The position numbers were made by a program, and so were the translations under genes. A DNA stretch of 34,614 nucleotides from Patescibacteria group bacterium (GTDB taxonomy: Bacteria; Patescibacteriota; Microgenomatia; UBA1400; MFAQ01), in the NCBI GenBank assembly GCA_018819325.1, contig JAHJQJ010000021.1, forward strand, positions 1-34,614. Direction: 5' to 3'. The notes below the pieces were generated by a model. That model was not told the origin of the DNA. It did no database searches and was given only the letters and a program-made list of their open reading frames with translations. The number at the start of each line of letters is the position of its first letter. Position 1 is the first letter of the stretch. Shown one piece after another: positions 1,549 to 31,074 of the stretch.

Positions 1549-2460
1549 TTATTTTTTCTTAAGAACTACTATTTCTCGTTTTAATTTAGAGTTGGGACGA
1601 GAGTAAATTAATCCTCTAGTTTTTATATTGTAACCTACTAAGGATTTATCGTCAATCACTTCGCTTAGTTGGTAAGTTTTTTTACCGTCTGAATAAATTG
1701 GGAAAACCATGCAAACCGTGCCGCCCACATCGAGAACTTTTAGCCAATTTTTAAGGGAACCAAGATATAGTTTGTGTAAGCCCTTAGTAACAAATTTTAT
1801 CTGGTCAGGTCTTAAATTGGGTTTGCCCATGAAGGGTTCGGTGACTATGTAGTTAACCTGGGTATCAATGTTTTTGGAAATTTGAGTGGCGTCAAAATTA
1901 TGAAGTTTAAAATTTTTTACACCCAACCAGCTTAGGTTTTTTCTGGTTCCTTCTAGTTGTTTGGTGTCAATGTCTGTACCCAAAAGAGACAGACCTAATA
2001 CACCGGCTTCCATTAGTATGTTGCCAGAGCCACAAAATGGATCTAATAAGACTCTGTCATTCCCGCGCAGGCGGGAATCTATATCAATGGATCCCGGCTC
2101 AAGGCCGGGATGACGATGATTTTGTTGGGTCTTGGTGTAGTTTTTGCCCAAGGCAAGGTTGACCATGATGCGGGCAATTTTAGGGGGCAACATGCCTTTT
2201 CTGCCGTCTGCAAAGGGTTTTAAGCGGTCCCTTTTGTACCACTCTTTGGCTTGATGGCGCCAAACAAGTTTATCGTTGGACTTACCTCTTATTTCTACTA
2301 AACCACCTAAGCGGTGGGCCACGGTGTTAAGGTCAGAAAAATTGTCTAGTTCAACCAAATATTTACGAGGGGATATTTTGGTAATGACTTTGCCCAAAAC
2401 TGTTTCTAGCTCTAGCTTGGCCAGGTCTTCGTTGAAGCCCAGGTGAAAAACGAAGTCCAT
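1549..2460 (-). CDS. Trm11/TrmG10-like tRNA (guanine-N2) methyltransferase / UPF0020 family, with an in-frame repeat insertion
   Basis: DPFCGSGNILMEAG SAM-binding motif and TEPFMGKP catalytic-type motif; the peptide HPGLEPGSIDIDSRLRGNDR is encoded by a dispersed repeat. Confidence 0.8.
   Translation of the reverse strand: MDFVFHLGFNEDLAKLELETVLGKVITKISPRKYLVELDNFSDLNTVAHRLGGLVEIRGKSNDKLVWRHQAKEWYKRDRLKPFADGRKGMLPPKIARIMVNLALGKNYTKTQQNHRHPGLEPGSIDIDSRLRGNDRVLLDPFCGSGNILMEAGVLGLSLLGTDIDTKQLEGTRKNLSWLGVKNFKLHNFDATQISKNIDTQVNYIVTEPFMGKPNLRPDQIKFVTKGLHKLYLGSLKNWLKVLDVGGTVCMVFPIYSDGKKTYQLSEVIDDKSLVGYNIKTRGLIYSRPNSKLKREIVVLKKK
2056..2114. repeat. REPIN-like 59-bp double-hairpin repeat inside the methyltransferase CDS
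   Basis: gtcATTCCCGCgcagGCGGGAATctatatcaatggATCCCGGCtcaagGCCGGGATgac: two hairpins bounded by gtcat...atgac; near-copies at 3033-3091 and 12834-12891. Confidence 0.9.
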
Positions 2461-2465
2461 TTTAT

Positions 2466-2795
2466 TTAAATTTTTATGCTTTTGACCTTTAGGTGTGTTT
2501 CTAGTTGTCTGTGGCCTTTTACTCTTCTGTATCGAGACTTGGCCTTGAACTTGGCCACTCTGATCTTGAGACCTTTTTTGGTTTCAAGGTGTTCTAGTCT
2601 GACCACCGCACCCTTGACAAAGGGTTGGCCTATTTTGGTTTTTTCACCATCGTGGGTTAGGAGAACATTTGGTGTAATTATCTCCTTATCCTTAAGATTA
2701 AGGTTATTTACCACTAAAATGTCACCCTCTTTGACTAGAAACTGCCTTGGGGTTATTTCTATTACTGCGATTGATTCTGGTTTTTTAGTTGCCAT
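2466..2795 (-). CDS. rplU: 50S ribosomal protein L21
   Basis: AVIEITPRQFLVKEGDILVV...KFKAKSRYRRVKGHRQLETHLKVKSI; upstream of the methyltransferase and rpmA. Confidence 0.93.
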   Translation of the reverse strand: MATKKPESIAVIEITPRQFLVKEGDILVVNNLNLKDKEIITPNVLLTHDGEKTKIGQPFVKGAVVRLEHLETKKGLKIRVAKFKAKSRYRRVKGHRQLETHLKVKSIKI

Positions 2796-2803
2796 GATGC
2801 TTG

Positions 2804-2812
2804 ATTATATCA
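2804..2812 (-). promoter_or_regulatory. Extended -10 (TGA-TATAAT) of rplU, 8 nt upstream of ATG
   Basis: Minus strand TGATATAATcaagcatcATG. Confidence 0.7.
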
Positions 2813-2831
2813 TTTTTTTTAGGCACCTCTT

Positions 2832-2979
2832 GTCATCCTGAGCGGAGCGTAAGCGGAGTCGAATGGATCTCTCGCGAATGCGAGTCTCAAACAAGTTGAG
2901 AGATTCTTCTCCCGATTCTACGAATCGAGGATCAGAATGACACGAGGAGGATGGATCCCGGCTCGGAGGCCGGGATGAC
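2832..2979. repeat. Tandem palindromic repeat elements (gtcatcctgag...cagaatgac followed by a ggatcccggc hairpin)
   Basis: Outer gtcat/atgac boundaries, internal tctcgcgaatgcgag hairpin, then ATCCCGGCtcggagGCCGGGAT. Confidence 0.8.
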
Positions 2980-3032
2980 GAAGAGGGTGCGGGCTGACAG
3001 GGACGGTCCTTGTCATTTCAACCTTCCAGCAC

Positions 3033-3091
3033 GTCATTCCCGCGCAGGCGGGAATCTATTCAAATGGATCCCGCACTAAATGCGGGATGAC
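3033..3091. repeat. REPIN-like 59-bp double hairpin
   Basis: gtcATTCCCGCgcagGCGGGAATctattcaaatggATCCCGCActaaaTGCGGGATgac. Confidence 0.9.
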
Positions 3092-3097
3092 GGGGGG

Positions 3098-3155
3098 GTA
3101 GGCACGACCCGCGGGGTCGTGCCTGGGGGTTGTGCCTAAAATTGATATAGTTGAG
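3098..3155 (+). repeat. About 58-bp structured element (GTAGGC-ACGACCCGCGGGGTCGT-GCC...TTGATATAGTTG), copy 1
   Basis: Homologous to 15984-16040 (minus) and 20106-20162 (plus); stem bases covary between copies. Confidence 0.8.
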
Positions 3156-7086: not shown

Positions 7087-7110
7087 AACAAGAATGGCTA
7101 AATCATACCT

Positions 7111-7172
7111 GTCATTCTGGTAAGTGAGTCTTCGAACGCATCCAGAATCGATTCTGGGCAAGCCAGAATGAC
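7111..7172. repeat. Palindromic repeat (gtcattctgg...ccagaatgac)
   Basis: gtcattctggtaagtgagtcttcgaacgcatccagaatcgattctgggcaagccagaatgac; close relative at 8421-8506. Confidence 0.85.
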
Positions 7173-7179
7173 GAATGGG

Positions 7180-8355
7180 TTATTTATTGCGAAGGAAGGC
7201 GGGGATGTCTAGGTCGTCTTCTATGGTTACCTCGTCGTGTTCGATTTCCATTTTTTTACCTGCAGATCTCACAGAAGGTTCGGAACTATCCTTCGCTGTG
7301 CTGCGGACCGCCGAAAGTTCCGAACCTTCCGCTCCCGCCGGGGAGAGATCCTTTGGAGGGTGATTAATCTGACCCATTATGTTTTGGAGTCTTTTTCTAG
7401 ATTGATCGAAACCGGTGGCAATGACAGAAATTTTAATGCTGTCTTTCATTTCTTTATTAATAGTGGCCCCAAAAATGATGTTGGCGTCTGGATCGGCGGC
7501 GTTGGTTATTAAATTGGCGGCTTTGTTGACCTCACCCATGGTTAAGTCTTTACTACCCGTAATATTGAAAAGAATTCCTCTGGCGCCTTCTATGTTTACC
7601 TCTAGTAAGGGTGAATTTATGGCTGCTTCGGCGGCTTTTTGAGCTCGGTGTTCACCAGAGGCGGTGCCAATACCCATTAGAGCGGTGCCGGCGTTGGTCA
7701 TGATGGCTTTTACATCGGCAAAGTCAACGTTTATTAAACCTGGAATAGTGATTAGATCCGAGATACTTTGAACACCTTGGGCCAAAACAGAGTCGGCCAC
7801 AATGAAGGCTTCGGTAAGTGGTAAGTCTTTGTTGGTAACTTCTAGTAGTTTTTCATTGGGAATAACAATAAGCGTGTCGACCGAGTTTTTTAGCTGATCT
7901 ACCCCTTCTTCGGCGTTGATCATACGTCTGGCACCTTCAAAAGGGAATGGTTTGGTAACCACGGCAACTGTTAGGGCTCCTACATCTTTAGCGATCTTGG
8001 CTATTACCGGAGCTGCACCCGTACCTGTTCCCCCACCCTCTCCGCAGGTAATAAAGACCATGTCTGTGCCGGTAAGTAAATTTTTGATTTTTTCGCTTGA
8101 TTCTTCGGCGGCGGCTTGACCCATGTCTGGATTGGAACCTGACCCCAAACCTTTGGTTAGTTTTTCACCAATTTGCAGTTTAATGTCTGCATTGCTTGCT
8201 AATAGGGCCTGCATGTCTGTGTTTATGGCAATGAACTCCACACCTTTTATTTCACCGTCGGTGACCATGTAGTTAACGGCGTTGTTTCCGCCTCCGCCAA
8301 CACCCACGACCTTGATTTTTGCAAAAGAATTGATGTCTGGTCTAACTAATGCCAT
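7180..8355 (-). CDS. ftsZ: Cell division protein FtsZ
   Basis: [26 protein letters not shown], conserved C-terminal tail [11 protein letters not shown]. Confidence 0.97.
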
Positions 8356-8415: not shown

Positions 8416-8420
8416 TATTC

Positions 8421-8506
8421 GTCATTCTGGTAAGTGAGTCTTCGAACGCATCCGGAATCTGTTCGGTTCGATTCTGGAGTCCTCGCAGACTCGTCCCCAG
8501 AATGAC
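8421..8506. repeat. Palindromic repeat (gtcattctgg...ccagaatgac), 86 bp
   Basis: gtcat/atgac boundaries; shares gtcattctggtaagtgagtcttcgaacgcatcc with 7111-7172. Confidence 0.85.
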
Positions 8507-8564
8507 GGAGAGGAAAGGATTCGGCATCAGAATGCCTAGATTCTTCACTATCGTTCAGAATGAC

Positions 8565-12797: not shown

Positions 12798-12833
12798 CAC
12801 CAATCAATATCGTCATCCTGAACTCCCCCCCCC

Positions 12834-12927
12834 GTCATTCCTGCGTAGGCAGGAATCTATCCAAATGGATCCCCGCCTGCGCGGGGATGACGTTGGAGGA
12901 TGGATCCCGTACTAAATGCGGGATGAC
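12834..12927. repeat. REPIN-like double hairpin plus an extra REP hairpin
   Basis: ATTCCTGCgtagGCAGGAAT (compensatory variant), ATCCCCGCctgcGCGGGGAT, then ATCCCGTActaaaTGCGGGAT. Confidence 0.85.
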
Positions 12928-13085
12928 AGGGGGGTGTGAAATGATAGGGACGGTCCTTGTCATTCCGATTGGAGTCCCGACCCTGCGGTCGAGGACGGAA
13001 TAGAGGAATCCCTTTCAACTGGAAATCATACAATAAAGTAGTTAGTTTGTTTACTGGTAGGCTGTACTTTTGAAAGGGGTTGAGC

Positions 13086-14111
13086 CTAGGAGAGGGCGAG
13101 CCAGAGGCCGACGACTACTAACATGATGTTGGTCAACCAGGCTCTTTGGACTATTTTTGGTTCTGACCAGCCTTTTTTTAGTAACCAATAATGAATTGGG
13201 GCAATAGGTAGAAGTCTTCTACCAAGAATCTTGACCCCCATTATTTGGATAACGCTGGAAAGACCGTTTATTAAAAATGGTAAACCAATAACCAAGAGGG
13301 CAAAGACCTTGCCGGTTAGAAGACCCACGGTAGCAAAGGTGGCCCCAAAAGCCAAGGCGCCAACGTCACCCATAAAGATACGGGCAGGAAAGACGTTGAA
13401 GTAGAGAAAAGCAATTAATCCACCCAACAATAGGGCAATAAAGATAGAAAGAGGTACGTCTAAAATGGATGCGGATAATAATAAAAGGCCAAATAAGGAG
13501 ATCATTAGTAGTCCACCGGCAAGGCCGTCCATGCCGTCGGTAATGTTAACAGAGTTGGCAAAAACTACCACCAAAAAAGCGGCTAGAGGAATGAACCAGT
13601 GGCCAAAAGCGACTACACCAAAAAAGGGAATGTTAATTATATCTATACCTAAGTTTATGTTGAGCAAGGTTCCTATTGTTAATCCTAGGACCACCTGGAT
13701 AATTAATTTATAGCTAGTGCGTAGGCCTGAGTAACCATGCTGTCTGTCTAGTTCAAAAAAACCAACCACGTCGTCGTATAAACCTAGTAAGCCAAAGGTG
13801 ATAAAAGTGAAAAAGATTACGTTTATTTCTTCGTTTAATGGATATACGTGGGTAATTTCTATGCCTGCAAGTTTAAGAAGAGGAATTGATAAAGCAAAAA
13901 GAAGACTGACTAAGACCAAAATGAGAAAACCACCACCCTCTGGTGTCTTGGCTTTTGAGCGGATATGTTCAGAAGCGGCGTCTTTTTTATCAGCTGCTAT
14001 GGCTGACTTTTTTTTGTAAAACTTTAATCTGTAAAGATAATTAATAAAAGGAACTATAGCCAGCGAATGAATGGTGAAGGAGAATATTAATATTCCTAGA
14101 AGAAGGGCCAT
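13086..14111 (-). CDS. mraY: Phospho-N-acetylmuramoyl-pentapeptide transferase
   Basis: KTPEGGGFLIL, NSVNITDGMDGLAGGL, FMGDVGALAFGA, APIHYWLLKKGWSEPKIVQRAW. Confidence 0.95.
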   Translation of the reverse strand: MALLLGILIFSFTIHSLAIVPFINYLYRLKFYKKKSAIAADKKDAASEHIRSKAKTPEGGGFLILVLVSLLFALSIPLLKLAGIEITHVYPLNEEINVIFFTFITFGLLGLYDDVVGFFELDRQHGYSGLRTSYKLIIQVVLGLTIGTLLNINLGIDIINIPFFGVVAFGHWFIPLAAFLVVVFANSVNITDGMDGLAGGLLMISLFGLLLLSASILDVPLSIFIALLLGGLIAFLYFNVFPARIFMGDVGALAFGATFATVGLLTGKVFALLVIGLPFLINGLSSVIQIMGVKILGRRLLPIAPIHYWLLKKGWSEPKIVQRAWLTNIMLVVVGLWLALS

Positions 14112-14461
14112 AGGTATTTACCAAAAATAATAAAAGCAATTATGACGGAAGAAATGGCGGATAACAAAACCATGCCAGAGGAGACGTCTTTGGCGATTTT
14201 TGCTTGCTGGTGAAACTTGTCTGTTAGTAGGTCTACAACCGACTCTATGGATGTGTTTATCATTTCTGCTATTAAAACCAGAGAGATTGTAAAAACGATA
14301 ACTATTTTTTCTGCTTGAGAGATGTTTAGAATAAAGCTGGCGGTAAGAGCGATTAAGGCGGCTAGGGCGTGAATTTTGAAGTTGGGCTGGGTTTTGAATG
14401 TATAAATAATGCCGCTAAAGGCATTTTTAAAGGAAATGGTGTGTTTTTTTATGATGGACAC
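14096..14461 (-). CDS. dgkA: DgkA-family diacylglycerol/undecaprenol kinase
   Basis: SFKNAFSGIIYTFKTQPNFKIHALAAL...AEMINTSIESVVDLLTDKFHQQAKIAKDVSSGMVLLSAI; GTG start; overlaps the mraY start. Confidence 0.9.
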   Translation of the reverse strand: MSIIKKHTISFKNAFSGIIYTFKTQPNFKIHALAALIALTASFILNISQAEKIVIVFTISLVLIAEMINTSIESVVDLLTDKFHQQAKIAKDVSSGMVLLSAISSVIIAFIIFGKYLWPFF

Positions 14462-14467
14462 AGGTTT

Positions 14468-14476
14468 ATTTTACCA
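14468..14476 (-). promoter_or_regulatory. Extended -10 (TGG-TAAAAT) of dgkA, 6 nt upstream of GTG
   Basis: Minus strand TGGTAAAATaaacctGTG. Confidence 0.65.
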
Positions 14477-14480
14477 CTCT

Positions 14481-14489
14481 TGCTATAAT
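14481..14489 (+). promoter_or_regulatory. Extended -10 (TGC-TATAAT) of the M42 peptidase gene, 8 nt upstream of ATG
   Basis: TGCTATAATttgagacaATG. Confidence 0.75.
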
Positions 14490-14497
14490 TTGAGACA

Positions 14498-15760
14498 ATG
14501 AGACTAAATCAACATTTGCTGGAACTACTTCAAGAAATTCAGGAAATTCCAAGTTCACCTTTTTTATCCAAACCTTCAAAAGAATATATCATCTCCCTTC
14601 TTACAAAATATAATGTCCCCTTTAGCTTTAATCACTATTCTATTATTGCCCGTCCCGTTCAAAATCCCGGGGCAACTAAGTTAGTTTTTCTTACCCATAC
14701 AGACCATCCTGGCGCCGTATTGAAAAATAATCGAATAGGTATTTTGTTTGGTTCGGTTGGACTGGGGAGGCTTGGAAAACAACTACCCATTCCCATGAAG
14801 GTGTTTTCCCCCCAGGGAAAGTACTTGGGCAAAGGCGAGATAACACACATTGAAAAGAGCCGGAAAATTGGAACCAAGATAGATTTTGACGTTCCTAAAA
14901 ATTCCTTTGCTCAGTATGATTTCCCCTACCTCAAGAATACTCCAACTCATATAAAGCTCTATAACGCAGATAACGGTATTGATACGGCAGTTATGTTGCA
15001 CCTTCTTAGTAAAAGAATTGAATCTGGGTTTGACCTTTACTTTGTTTTTAATTTCCATGAAGAAGTCCACCAAATAAGTGCTTGGCATTTATCCAGACAC
15101 AACCCTATTAATATTGGTTCTAGAGATATAGTTATTAATCTTGAGGCCCCAATTATTGAAAACCAAAAAAATAAGTTCTGCCCGCCGGTTAATTACGAAA
15201 ATGGACCAGTTCTTGAGTTAAGCAATCTTAATATGGTCCATGGTTATAAAAATCCAGGTAAAAATCTTGCAGAGGTTTTGCTTAAGACGACAGCTCACAG
15301 GTACAAACTTGACCTACAAATTGGTGCTACCAAAGGCTCGGATGAGGCCCGCGCGATCACCAATTTTGGTCTTACCCCCAATATTGTTACCCTGGCCATA
15401 CCCAACCGTTACAAGCACAACCGGGGTAGTGATGGTCAGGTTGTGCCAGAAGAAATTCTAAAAAAAGATGTTGTTATTTTTTCCAAACTATTGTCAAAGG
15501 CCATACTTTTTGACCCAAAAAAACTAAATAAAATAAGCACCAAGATGACTAACTTATCTTTGCAAATTAAGAAGAATGATTGCATTACAGATAAAGATGT
15601 CCAATTACAGAAGGCAAAACTAAATGACAGACTTGATGTTTATTACAAGGCCATTATTAAACGAGGGTACTACTTCCCCGAGTCACTTAAGGACAGCTTT
15701 CAAGATTTTGCTTTAAAATTACTCTTTTATTTCATGTTTCTAATACAGAAACTATATTAG
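14498..15760 (+). CDS. M42/M20-type metallopeptidase (aminopeptidase-like)
   Basis: LTHTDHPGAVL, YNADNGIDTAVML, FNFHEEVHQISAW, INLEAPI, GATKGSDEARAITNFG. Confidence 0.75.
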   Translation: MRLNQHLLELLQEIQEIPSSPFLSKPSKEYIISLLTKYNVPFSFNHYSIIARPVQNPGATKLVFLTHTDHPGAVLKNNRIGILFGSVGLGRLGKQLPIPMKVFSPQGKYLGKGEITHIEKSRKIGTKIDFDVPKNSFAQYDFPYLKNTPTHIKLYNADNGIDTAVMLHLLSKRIESGFDLYFVFNFHEEVHQISAWHLSRHNPINIGSRDIVINLEAPIIENQKNKFCPPVNYENGPVLELSNLNMVHGYKNPGKNLAEVLLKTTAHRYKLDLQIGATKGSDEARAITNFGLTPNIVTLAIPNRYKHNRGSDGQVVPEEILKKDVVIFSKLLSKAILFDPKKLNKISTKMTNLSLQIKKNDCITDKDVQLQKAKLNDRLDVYYKAIIKRGYYFPESLKDSFQDFALKLLFYFMFLIQKLY

Positions 15761-15769
15761 ATTATAAAG

Positions 15770-15880
15770 TTAGAGGAGGAGTTGGTTGAGGATTTTGAAG
15801 TTAGGCTGGGTTTTGAAGGTGTAGATTATGCCACTAAAGGCATGCCTAAAAGAGATGGTGTGCTTTTTTATAATAGACAC
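15770..15880 (-). pseudogene. Chimeric 36-aa ORF: dgkA N-terminus fused in frame to the ftsI C-terminus (recombination scar)
   Basis: Minus strand: (GTG)VSIIKKHTISFRHAFSGIIYTFKTQPNFK-ILNQLLL*. Compare DgkA MSIIKKHTISFKNAFSGIIYTFKTQPNFKI and FtsI ...FKILNQLLL*. Confidence 0.93.
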
Positions 15881-15901
15881 AAGGTTATTTTAACACTTTA
15901 G

Positions 15902-15944
15902 ATTCTGGACAAGCCCCCGCTGAGCGGGACTCTGGCAGAATGAC
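15902..15944. repeat. Palindromic repeat (attctggacaagcc...cagaatgac)
   Basis: Inverted relative of part of 20195-20275 (cagagtcccgctcagcgggggcttgtccagaat). Confidence 0.75.
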
Positions 15945-15949
15945 AAGAT

Positions 15950-15971
15950 TCCGATGGTTCGAACCATCGGA
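15950..15971. repeat. 22-bp perfect palindrome TCCGATGGTTCGAACCATCGGA, copy 1
   Basis: Identical copies at 19577-19598 and 20168-20189. Confidence 0.95.
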
Positions 15972-15983
15972 ATAACGAGTTTC

Positions 15984-16040
15984 CCAACCATATCAGTTTC
16001 AAGGCTAACCCCCAGCCTCAACCCCGCGGGTTGAGCCTAC
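15984..16040 (-). repeat. About 58-bp structured element, copy 2 (inverted)
   Basis: Reverse complement GTAGGCTCAACCCGCGGGGTTGAGGCTGGGGGTTAGCCTTGAAACTGATATGGTTGG. Confidence 0.85.
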
Positions 16041-16132
16041 TCGCGAATGCGAGTCTGAAACAAGTTCAGAGATTCTTCACTATCGTTCAGAATGACCCGA
16101 GGGGGATGGATCCCCGCCTGCGCGGGGATGAC
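16040..16132. repeat. REP/REPIN-type hairpins
   Basis: ctcgcgaatgcgag...gttcagaatgac, then ggATCCCCGCctgcGCGGGGATgac. Confidence 0.8.
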
Positions 16133-16193
16133 GGAGGGGGTGCGGGATGACAGTGAGAGTGGGACGGAGTAATGACAAAGGAGAAATTGAAGG

Positions 16194-17906
16194 TCAGAGG
16201 AGGAGTTGGTTGAGGATTTTGAACCAGAGAGGGGCGGCGGTTTCTGAACCCCAAGGAGAGGCTGTGGGTTCGGTTAAGGTAACCAGCATGGTGTATTTGG
16301 GGTTGTAGGCTGGGAAGTAACCAATAAAGCTGGCGATTGTTTTGTTTTGATCGTATTTTCCGTCCACGGGGATCTGAGCGGTTCCTGTTTTGCCGGCTAT
16401 TGACAATCCTTGCGGTCTTTTCCAATTTAGCTTGCTTTGATTAACCACCTCCATTAACATTTGAGTTATTTGCTTAGTTGTATTTTCTTCTAATACTTTA
16501 CGTGAGGGGGGTTGGTCTTCTTTTTCAATTAAGGTGGGTTGAACAAGTAAACCTTTGTTAGCCAATGCGTTGAATGCTGTTAAAAGCTGAATTCTGGTTA
16601 TAGCAATTCCCTGGCCAAATGCGTTGGTGGCTAGGTCTATTTCTCTAAAACTGCTACCTGTTTTTAGTTTGCTGGTGACCTCTTCTTGAAGTTCTATGCC
16701 TGTTATGGCGTTAAAGCCAAAATTATCTAGGGTTTTTAAAAAATTTTCTGATCCAAGCTTTCTTGACACGTAGACCATACCTATATTGTCCGAGTTAACC
16801 AGAATATCTGTCATATTTGAGTCTGGGTGGTAGACCTCATCCCAGGTCTTGATGCTGAACTGGCCGATTTCAATAGGGCCTGTGCAAATGTCACAGGTTG
16901 AGTCCTGGTTAATTACCCCTTTTTCTAAAGCCGAGGCCATAATGATTGGTTTAAAAACCGAACCTGGTTCAAACAAACTGGCAACCACGGGGTTTTTGTA
17001 CCAATCTTTGTTGTAGTCTGGATAATTACCCAGATCATAATTGGGAAAACTGGCCATGACTCTAATTTTCCCGGTTGAGGTTTCCATTACGGTAACGGTT
17101 CCGGAGCGGGCACCGTAACGAGCCATGCCTTCTATAAGTAGGTTTTCTATTAGAAACTGCTTGGGTTTGTCTATAGTTAGTTTAAGTGAATCACCATTTT
17201 GGCTTTGTAATAACTGATAATTACCAATTAAAATTGGGTTGCCATAGGCGTCTTGCTCACCCCTTACCTTGCCAGAACGACCTTTTAGCTGACGATCAAA
17301 AAAGCCTTCGATACCAAAATAGCCTTGTTCTTGACCGGCAAGGTCTTTGCCAACAAAACCCAGAATATGGGCTGACAATGAACTTTCTGGATAGTAACGT
17401 AGATACTCTGGCTCAAAATCTAACCCCTCCAGCTCCTGATTGTCTATTAATTCTTTTTGTTCAGGAGTCAGATAGTGCTTTATTGAGATCCAGTTTGAAG
17501 ATAAAGTTACTCTTCCCGTAAGGAAGTCTTTTGTTTCTTGCAACATTTGCTCTGGGGTAATAATTTCAGCCCCCGGACTGGCTGGTGGAGGATCTTCAAC
17601 CAAGATTGGTGCTAACATGTCTACAATTTTTTCAGTTGAGTCTTTCATCTGCGGTTTGTAAATATATAAATGATAGAGGTTCTTAATACCGGCCAAAAGC
17701 TCACCATTGGTATCGTAAATATTTCCTCTACGGGCCTGTAAGACACTTACTGAACTATGTTGACGGCTGGCTTGTATGCTTAATTGTGGTCCCTTAATTA
17801 CTTGCCAGTAAAAAAGTCGAATTAGAATAGCAATAAACAATAGGGGGGAAAGGTTGGTGATTAGCTTAAGGCGAAAGCGGGTGAGCTTTTGATCATCATG
17901 GATCAT
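16194..17906 (-). CDS. ftsI: FtsI/PBP2B-class penicillin-binding transpeptidase
   Basis: ARRGNIYDTNGELLA, FEPGSVFKPIIMASAL, NSDNIGMVYVS (SxN), GKTGTAQIPVDG (KTGT). Confidence 0.95.
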   Translation of the reverse strand: MIHDDQKLTRFRLKLITNLSPLLFIAILIRLFYWQVIKGPQLSIQASRQHSSVSVLQARRGNIYDTNGELLAGIKNLYHLYIYKPQMKDSTEKIVDMLAPILVEDPPPASPGAEIITPEQMLQETKDFLTGRVTLSSNWISIKHYLTPEQKELIDNQELEGLDFEPEYLRYYPESSLSAHILGFVGKDLAGQEQGYFGIEGFFDRQLKGRSGKVRGEQDAYGNPILIGNYQLLQSQNGDSLKLTIDKPKQFLIENLLIEGMARYGARSGTVTVMETSTGKIRVMASFPNYDLGNYPDYNKDWYKNPVVASLFEPGSVFKPIIMASALEKGVINQDSTCDICTGPIEIGQFSIKTWDEVYHPDSNMTDILVNSDNIGMVYVSRKLGSENFLKTLDNFGFNAITGIELQEEVTSKLKTGSSFREIDLATNAFGQGIAITRIQLLTAFNALANKGLLVQPTLIEKEDQPPSRKVLEENTTKQITQMLMEVVNQSKLNWKRPQGLSIAGKTGTAQIPVDGKYDQNKTIASFIGYFPAYNPKYTMLVTLTEPTASPWGSETAAPLWFKILNQLLL

Positions 17907-20189: not shown

Positions 20190-20194
20190 CCATT

Positions 20195-20275
20195 GTCATT
20201 CTGCCAGAGTCCCGCTCAGCGGGGGCTTGTCCAGAATTGATTCTGGAGTCCTCGCCGACTCGTCCCCAGAATGAC
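20195..20275. repeat. Palindromic repeat (gtcattctgcc...cccagaatgac)
   Basis: gtcat/atgac boundaries; inner ccagaattgattctgg palindrome. Confidence 0.8.
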
Positions 20276-20361
20276 GGAGGGGGTTAGGTGACAGGGACGG
20301 TCCTTGTCACTCCAATTGAAATCCTGACCGCTTCGGTCGAGGACGAAAAAAAAGGGGTGGA

Positions 20362-26453: not shown

Positions 26454-27125
26454 TTACCATTTACTGATCATGGCAAATGGGGTTTTGATTATTATTGCAA
26501 TATCTTCTAGAATTGACTGTCTTTTGGCGTAGGCGGCGTCCATTTTTACCCGTTCATCCCAATCAACATCATTTCGACCAGAAACCTGCCAGAGACCAGT
26601 AAGGCCCGGTTTAACGCTTTGAGATAAATCTATGTATTTTTTTATACCTTTACCGTAACGCTTAACGGCGTCGGTCATTTCTGGTTCAGCTTCTGTTTGG
26701 ATGTAAGCCCGTGGACCCACAAGACTCATGTCGCCTTTTAGAATGTTAAACACCTGTGGCATTTCATCGATTGAAGTTTGTCGAATAAATCTGCCAATTT
26801 TAGTAATGCGCGGATCCTTGTCTAAGGGTAACTTCCAACCCGCTTTTTTGTATTTCTCGAAAAGTTTTGGATTGTCTCTCCAAAAGTTAAAGGCATGACC
26901 AGGTTTACCATTTTTATCTTTAAACATCCTCATTGATCTAAATTTCAAGAGACCAAACGTCCTACCGTATTTACCAATTCTTTTGGGTGCGTATATTATT
27001 GGAGCACTTGGTTCTTCAAGTTTCATTAGCAAGGGAATAATTATCCAGATGGGTAAAAAAAGAACTGCTAGAACCAGTGAGGCGGTGATGTCTATTAGCC
27101 GCTTAATTGGTTCGTAAAAAATCAT
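26454..27125 (-). CDS. Polyprenyl-phosphate sugar-1-phosphate transferase (short, PglC/WcaJ catalytic-domain type)
   Basis: KRLIDITASLVLAVLFLPIWIIIPLLMKLE, LKFRSMRMFKD, DPRITKIGRFIRQTSIDEMPQVFNILKGDMSLVGPRAY, GLTGLWQVSGRN. Confidence 0.92.
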   Translation of the reverse strand: MIFYEPIKRLIDITASLVLAVLFLPIWIIIPLLMKLEEPSAPIIYAPKRIGKYGRTFGLLKFRSMRMFKDKNGKPGHAFNFWRDNPKLFEKYKKAGWKLPLDKDPRITKIGRFIRQTSIDEMPQVFNILKGDMSLVGPRAYIQTEAEPEMTDAVKRYGKGIKKYIDLSQSVKPGLTGLWQVSGRNDVDWDERVKMDAAYAKRQSILEDIAIIIKTPFAMISKW

Positions 27126-29356: not shown

Positions 29357-29420
29357 GTCATTCTGGCTTGTCCAGGAGAATCTTTTTATTCTTAGGTAAC
29401 CTTTTTGCTTTTAGGTTTTA
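29357..29420 (-). pseudogene. Remnant of a GT4 3' coding end fused to a REP half-site
   Basis: 29371-29420 aligns to the 3' part of the GT gene at 30015-30065 (tccaggagaatctttttattcttaggtaacctttttgcttttaggtttt vs tccaggagaatctttttacccttaaaaaaccttttgcttttaggtttt). Confidence 0.85.
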
Positions 29421-29632: not shown

Positions 29633-29923
29633 CTAGACGGCAAACTGGGTGGATGGATTGAAAAAGAAAGGTACTTGAGTATTGGTGATCATTTCTTCGT
29701 TGGGGTGATCGACAGGAATTTCTTTATGTTCTTTTTGTAGAGACTCTAAATGAAAACTAATTGTGCCTTGGATATTTTTTAAGGCTTCTTGAGGACTACC
29801 TCCATCATCAACCACACCTAGGGTCGGACAAAAAGCAACGTAACATGGTTTTTTGCTACCGGTTCGTGTATCGGGTCTTAAGATTACTCGATAGTCAAGA
29901 ACGGTTTTCTTTTGTGTTTTCAT
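29633..29923 (-). CDS. hicB: HicB-family antitoxin
   Basis: YVAFCPTLGVVDDGGSPQEALKNIQGTISFHLESLQKEHKEIP; immediately precedes hicA. Confidence 0.85.
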   Translation of the reverse strand: MKTQKKTVLDYRVILRPDTRTGSKKPCYVAFCPTLGVVDDGGSPQEALKNIQGTISFHLESLQKEHKEIPVDHPNEEMITNTQVPFFFNPSTQFAV

Positions 29924-29953: not shown

Positions 29954-29974
29954 GTAAAGTATGCGATACTTTAC
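29954..29974. repeat. Hairpin GTAAAGTAT-GCG-ATACTTTAC overlapping the GT stop codon
   Basis: Related to GGAAGTATCGCATACTTCC at 8397 and 19551. Confidence 0.7.
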
Positions 29975-31074
29975 AGTGATTTGTAGGCTTTAATGGTTTC
30001 TCTGGCTGTTTTGGTCCAGGAGAATCTTTTTACCCTTAAAAAACCTTTTGCTTTTAGGTTTTTTAATACTTCTCTGTCCCCCATTATTTGCTCTAGCCTC
30101 AATATGAGACTTTTTTGATTATATGGATCAAAATAAAGAGCGGCGTTGCTATAGACCTCTGGTAAGCAGGTGGCGTCTGAAGAGAGAACTGGTAAGCCGG
30201 CCGCCATGGCTTCTAGACCGGTGAGACCAAAACCTTCAATAAGAGAGGGATGAACTAAGGCTAAGGCTTGAGAGTAAAGAACGGCCAGATCGTTATCCGG
30301 AACAAACCCTAAATAGTGAACATGGTTGTTTTTATTTATTTTATTTTCGAAAACACTGCGTGCACAAACAATAGCCAGAGTTAATTGGTGCTTATGGATT
30401 TTGTTAAAGTTTTTAATGGCTGAAACTAAAAAGTTGATGTTCTTGTGGGGATACAGATTGCCTGTGTAAATAACGAATGGTTTACGAAGATTGTATTTTT
30501 TGAATATATGACTAGGTTTGATTTTTACATCCACCTTAAGAGCCTTATCCACGGCTTCGTAGGTTACGTGAACCTTCTGGGGGTTTAAGTTGTAGTTGTT
30601 AACTAAATTATCCTTCCAAAATTTACTTGGGGTAATTATAATTTTGGCTTTACGGATATTTATAGCAACAGCGAAACGATAAGCCAGTTGCTTAATCCAG
30701 TAAACTTGGGGTGATCTAGTGGTGGATTCCTTGCCTGTGGAGATGTGTTTTATGAGATCGTGAATTGTAATAACAAGTTTGCCAGGGTAAAAAATGGGGG
30801 CGTTAAAATGGGGAACGTGCAAAAGATCAAGCTTGGCACGAGCAAATATAAATGGGTTTATTATTTGTTCGGCGAATGAATAAATTGGGGTGTTTAACTT
30901 AACAAACTTAAATTTTTTTAGAGATTCGATCTCTGATTTAATATCTTGGTTGCCAAAAATGACGTAGGTATTTTTGCGATCCGCTTGAGCTAGGGCCAGA
31001 ATTAGATTTCTGGTGTATCGGCCTATACCAGTATGTTTATTGCCATATAATCTGGCGTCGATACCTATTTGCAT
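29971..31074 (-). CDS. GT4-family glycosyltransferase
   Basis: MQIGIDARLYGNKHTGIGRYTRNL, YTGNLYPHKNINFLV, VHPSLIEGFGLTGLEAMAAGLPVLSSDATCLPEV. Confidence 0.93.
   Translation of the reverse strand: MQIGIDARLYGNKHTGIGRYTRNLILALAQADRKNTYVIFGNQDIKSEIESLKKFKFVKLNTPIYSFAEQIINPFIFARAKLDLLHVPHFNAPIFYPGKLVITIHDLIKHISTGKESTTRSPQVYWIKQLAYRFAVAINIRKAKIIITPSKFWKDNLVNNYNLNPQKVHVTYEAVDKALKVDVKIKPSHIFKKYNLRKPFVIYTGNLYPHKNINFLVSAIKNFNKIHKHQLTLAIVCARSVFENKINKNNHVHYLGFVPDNDLAVLYSQALALVHPSLIEGFGLTGLEAMAAGLPVLSSDATCLPEVYSNAALYFDPYNQKSLILRLEQIMGDREVLKNLKAKGFLRVKRFSWTKTARETIKAYKSL

Follow-up and report, generated by a model that had tools for sequence, protein, structure and literature searches.

The window, by which we mean the whole 34,614-nt stretch of DNA analysed here, is one contig (C8) of an 873-kb draft genome that comprises 86 contigs and is 86% complete with 2.4% contamination. 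Candidatus Collierbacteria and other Microgenomates are among its relatives, placing it within the Patescibacteria. Read along the minus strand, the locus consists of an intact ftsI, a spacer, a short stub (15897-15770), an M42-family peptidase gene located on the opposite strand, an intact dgkA and then mraY (Table 1). In the stub, the promoter box of dgkA and the first 29-30 codons of that gene are present a second time (D') and continue in frame into a duplicate of the ftsI tail (F'). Dispersed palindromic repeats make up the spacer (15899-16189) and also fill other gaps between genes of the window, at about 2050-3100, 7100-7180, 8420-8515, 12810-13080 and 20190-20350; they are likewise found on many contigs of a sibling genome from the same genus. 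In the ftsI-dgkA gap itself the two genomes carry different dispersed repeats.

Table 1. Features of the ftsI-dgkA region of the window.
Feature	Position	Strand	Remarks
Intact ftsI (PBP transpeptidase)	16194-17906	-	Protein 97% identical in the sibling
Spacer between ftsI and D', dispersed palindromic repeats	15899-16189		Repeats recur on many sibling contigs; 15899-15944 matches at 100%
D', copy of part of dgkA comprising its promoter box and 5' end	15792-15897	-	84% to 14373-14478; ~84% to sibling dgkA
Chimeric mini-ORF (dgkA codons 1-29/30 and last ftsI codons, in frame)	15770-15880	-	36 aa, stop TAA
Microhomology where the dgkA copy passes to the ftsI copy	15792-15799	-	TTCAAAAT, exactly 8 nt
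F', copy of the ftsI 3' end	15766-15799	-	Stop TAA, compared with TGA in ftsI
M42-family aminopeptidase-like gene, inserted	14498-15760	+	Absent from the sibling; PF05343, weak match
TATAAT box of M42, 8 nt before its ATG and divergent to dgkA	14484-14489	+	Read from sequence only; not called by the consensus promoter scan
TAAAAT box of dgkA, ending 6 nt before its GTG	14468-14473	-	Retained by D' (15887-15892) and by the sibling
Intact dgkA (prokaryotic diacylglycerol kinase family, PF01219), copy adjoining mraY	14096-14461	-	

The mini-ORF starts with GTG, and its predicted 36-aa product is VSIIKKHTISFRHAFSGIIYTFKTQPNFKILNQLLL. An in-frame stop lies four codons upstream of the GTG and the frame is, therefore, not part of a longer one. 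In a whole-genome self-comparison the two parental segments were recovered as direct repeats, the first extending over 106 nt at 84% identity (14373-14478 and 15792-15897, E ~1e-24) and the second over 34 nt at 94% (15766-15799 and 16190-16223). The last nine codons of ftsI are copied in the mini-ORF, the 27 coding nt at 15773-15799 being identical to 16197-16223. At the point where the copies meet, TTCAAAAT is common to both parents and has the same frame in dgkA and ftsI, and so the fusion is in frame; the probability of a match run of at least 8 nt at a random dgkA/ftsI junction is about 3e-4. No further copies of the ftsI tail or the dgkA head were found elsewhere in the draft bin. The first-pass annotation had described a DgkA N-terminus fused in frame to an FtsI C-terminus, with an identical 27-nt tail and an 8-nt microhomology between the parents, and in each of these respects it was correct, as the repeats are real and the 36-aa frame is intact. 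The minus-strand ORF that it placed at 15770-15892 also exists, although it runs only from 15880 to 15770, the larger span taking in the TAAAAT box. That box, put forward as a retained extended -10 element 6 nt before the GTG, is indeed kept with the same spacing as at the intact dgkA. A scan for consensus promoters and terminators, however, found nothing above shuffled sequences and did not call the box.

The M42 protein matches PF05343 at 24.4 bits, just above the Pfam gathering score of 23.2; among the sequences found, its nearest relatives share only 33-34% identity with it. The gene of the nearest other M42 relative (33% identity) is at another place in its genome, and a PDB sequence search with the window protein returned no match. 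His67, Asp69, Asp158, Glu188/Glu189 and His307, which are shared with two relatives of the same class, are candidate metal-binding or catalytic residues. The gene itself looks intact. The M42 protein occurs in 4 of the 94 genomes of the order and in 6 of the 384 sampled from the class. The GC content of the gene is 37.5%, compared with 38-45% in neighbouring genes, and its base composition is thus not strongly foreign.

The same-genus sibling (G001; JAHITH010000015.1, L005/L039) displays the uninserted state, in which single copies of ftsI and dgkA are separated by a 104-bp gap, mraY follows and no M42 gene is present. In the three family members examined ftsI is followed directly by dgkA and mraY, again with neither a duplication nor M42. 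As these four genomes lack both elements and M42 is rare in the order, comparison of gene order indicates that the duplicated, M42-containing arrangement is derived; M42 and the duplication were probably gained together. The inserted DNA is foreign to the recipient in that neither the sibling nor 90 of the 94 genomes of the order carry M42. The comparison of the ftsI-dgkA interval in siblings, proposed earlier as a check, consequently shows that the arrangement is not ancestral, and the derived state together with the real 8-nt microhomology upholds the original description of a recombination scar next to the M42 gene.

The relationship between the two dgkA heads was explored over the first 87 coding nt (29 codons) of the intact gene (D), the stub (D') and the sibling dgkA (S), a comparison in which the counts are small. 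The alleles differ at 14 (D-D'), 14 (D-S) and 12 (D'-S) sites, with 7, 5 and 5 private changes in D, D' and S, respectively, and are therefore about equidistant. In this alignment, suggested earlier as a way of finding the lineage that D' matches, D' is about as distant from S as from D. Third codon positions hold 12 of the 14 D-D' differences (P = 8e-5 against one third each), while only 2 of 29 residues are changed. The resulting third-position divergence (12/29, 41%) exceeds the ~10% observed in ftsI between window and sibling (Fisher P = 3e-5), and D and D' therefore seem to have separated no later than the two species did, and to have diverged as constrained coding sequence. In D' four of the five private coding changes are at third positions and there is no stop or indel; against the sibling it differs at 9 of 29 third positions, more than ftsI does (P = 0.003). 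Across dgkA and the start of mraY, 25% of third positions differ from the sibling, compared with about 10% in neighbouring division genes (P = 1e-7). A pair of alleles that each evolved as a functional gene in a separate lineage, and were united later, fits these data better than a decaying fragment does. A caveat to this comparison is that third-position divergence ranges from 0 to 42% across the genes of the window, which in itself suggests exchange between lineages. The sugar-transferase gene at 26454-27125 is, in the alignment as computed, only ~76% identical to its sibling counterpart (L074) in a region that is otherwise 89-97% identical, and may have been locally replaced by recombination.

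We consider it fairly probable that the mini-ORF marks an illegitimate junction created when M42 was acquired horizontally. The donor would have been a related lineage in which M42 lies between ftsI and dgkA, and the incoming segment would have comprised the last bases of the donor ftsI, M42 and a full dgkA. On one side the segment would have entered by homologous recombination at dgkA/mraY, and on the other by a join at the 8-nt microhomology to the recipient's dgkA after ~30 codons. Upstream of the join the recipient would retain its ftsI, the spacer, the dgkA promoter box and the first 29-30 dgkA codons, now a dead stub that reads into the donor ftsI tail, while the donor dgkA would replace the resident gene in function. 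A single event of this kind would account for F', M42, D' and the 8-nt overlap. The raised divergence of dgkA and the mraY start is expected if the dgkA-mraY side came from elsewhere; this side displays colinear homology up to window position 14008, where the sibling contig ends, and the crossover point was not located. No net loss of resident sequence is visible, since past codon 30 the donor's dgkA would now stand in place of the recipient's. Against acquisition, D', too, is further from the sibling than ftsI is and is thus not cleanly 'resident', and the base composition of M42 does not mark it strongly as foreign. In addition, a search of GTDB contigs by ftsI for a donor with the order ftsI-M42-dgkA recovered only the sibling and more distant relatives.

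DNA uptake is a plausible entry route in this organism. In its favour, 31 of 38 relatives carry ComEC and the window genome encodes DprA; counting against it, no ComEC was detected in the latter, which is 86% complete. A Saccharibacterium, also a member of the Patescibacteria, is transformable through ComEC (PMC10633639). While most of the family has ComEC, the sibling copy (G001:C98:9422-9682) is a broken fragment with stop codons.

The order ftsI-spacer-dgkA'|ftsI'-M42-dgkA would also arise if ~225 bp (ftsI tail, gap and dgkA head) had been duplicated in tandem in this lineage and joined at the 8-nt microhomology, M42 then having entered the second gap while the first copy, now dead, drifted. 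Bacteria commonly undergo tandem duplications joined at microhomologies, and the ftsI-dgkA gap of the sibling is short enough for such an event. This explanation, which requires two events, is nonetheless unlikely. A dead D' should decay at all codon positions, which is not the pattern of its private changes, and the third-position divergence of D from D' is greater than that between the species. The 87 coding nt compared, a small sample, thus display neither copies as young as the lineage nor neutral drift of the dead one, and a simple recent duplication appears disfavoured. The tandem duplication that was originally put forward as one possibility is, if placed within this lineage, accordingly not supported, as the dgkA heads are too diverged, and in a coding-constrained manner; the joining of two alleles fits better.

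Insertion of an ftsI tail-M42 segment with a long target duplication (~100 bp of dgkA) is improbable. It is consistent with a target that is single-copy in the uninserted relative and present as direct copies on both sides of the insert (104-nt overlap), and this class of insertion has been described for restriction-modification (R-M) genes of Helicobacter pylori (Nobusato et al. 2000, as cited in PMC3154945). Copies derived from one target sequence should, however, start identical, whereas those in the window have a coding-constrained divergence (41% versus 10% at third positions) that exceeds that of the species. The insert, moreover, carries an ftsI tail, pointing to the same locus of a relative, there is no R-M system, and 11 other indels between the two genomes are without long target duplication.

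At least as improbable is an assembly or library chimera of two co-occurring strains, one with ftsI-spacer-dgkA and the other with ftsI-M42-dgkA. Such a chimera would likewise combine diverged dgkA alleles on a single contig of a draft genome with this degree of fragmentation and contamination. Assemblers normally use k-mers much longer than the 8-nt overlap, however, which means that the join must be in the reads, and no stray ftsI tail or dgkA head occurs elsewhere in the bin.

The stub is probably without function, although a short transcript from it towards the 3' end of M42, antisense to that gene, is possible from the arrangement of the elements. The claim that it is expressed as a membrane-targeted micropeptide finds no support beyond the retained -10-like box. 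That the stub was kept because its promoter and 36-aa product act, for example as a small membrane peptide or in antisense transcription into M42, is scarcely credible: the TAAAAT box, the GTG and the frame are intact and the changes mostly synonymous, but the sibling lacks the stub, allelic descent explains the synonymous bias and the promoter scan was no better than shuffles. Very improbable, too, is the combined proposal of interspecies homology-facilitated illegitimate recombination (HFIR) in the division gene cluster with a stub kept for its own use, its promoter box driving a 36-aa membrane-targeted peptide or an M42-tuning antisense transcript.

In a self-comparison of 870 kb of the window genome, 17 direct repeats of 45-188 nt proved to be local and to have a single partner, a density of 19.5 per Mb; the part of the sibling examined gave 22.6 per Mb and a 250-kb sample of E. 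coli gave 4 per Mb. The density is thus ~20 per Mb in the two congeneric genomes. These diverged pairs enclose a single gene or a few and are in many cases at gene ends. Examples from the window genome (G000) are L107:1-61/1671-1731, L119:11348-11535/12492-12679, L156:3829-3919/4822-4911, L178:9892-9942/11974-12024, L182:2905-2963/4497-4555 and L186:9048-9188/10115-10255. In the window, 29370-29419 is a 50-nt copy (88%) of 30014-30062, the 3' end of a glycosyltransferase gene (29971-31074), and lies beyond a 96-aa ORF (29633-29923) that looks as if it was inserted with target duplication. As the sibling (L074) has the same layout, this arrangement is older. The repeat census suggested that the genome contains many similar scars. 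A less biased test, which took every indel of 250-6000 nt separating the two genomes across the sequence compared, revealed a long target duplication at 1 of 12, the locus described here, and we therefore do not claim that such scars recur. At three other repeat loci no clean empty site was found.

The recombination scar is real and tidy. In this streamlined, uncultured lineage the stub lets a gene gain be read from its seam, with both junction parents and the uninserted state visible, and the locus points to exchange between diverged relatives amid the cell-division gene cluster. The scar is of a known kind and reveals no new mechanism or system. As in the H. pylori insertions, long direct copies of a single-copy target flank the insert, but here the copies are diverged by 16% and the insert bears an ftsI tail and no R-M system. 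In the Vibrio cholerae T6SS immunity arrays, for which HFIR gene displacement that leaves old genes behind has been proposed (PMC5361080), an incoming module similarly displaces a resident gene and the remnant stays beside the new one; the present case, in contrast, involves a single housekeeping locus and a peptidase gene rather than an array. HFIR as known from S. pneumoniae, A. baylyi and P. stutzeri would differ in that it is coupled to deletion of resident DNA of similar size, whereas here the recipient retains a truncated stub. HFIR is characterised by dependence on RecA and on DNA uptake, the latter a plausible but presumptive capacity of this organism, and the event here is read from one fossil junction with a putative donor. 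The likeness lies at the illegitimate end of the junction: HFIR combines homology on one side with, in most cases, 3-10 bp of microhomology at the other end (PMC3240628), a range that includes the 8 nt of TTCAAAAT.
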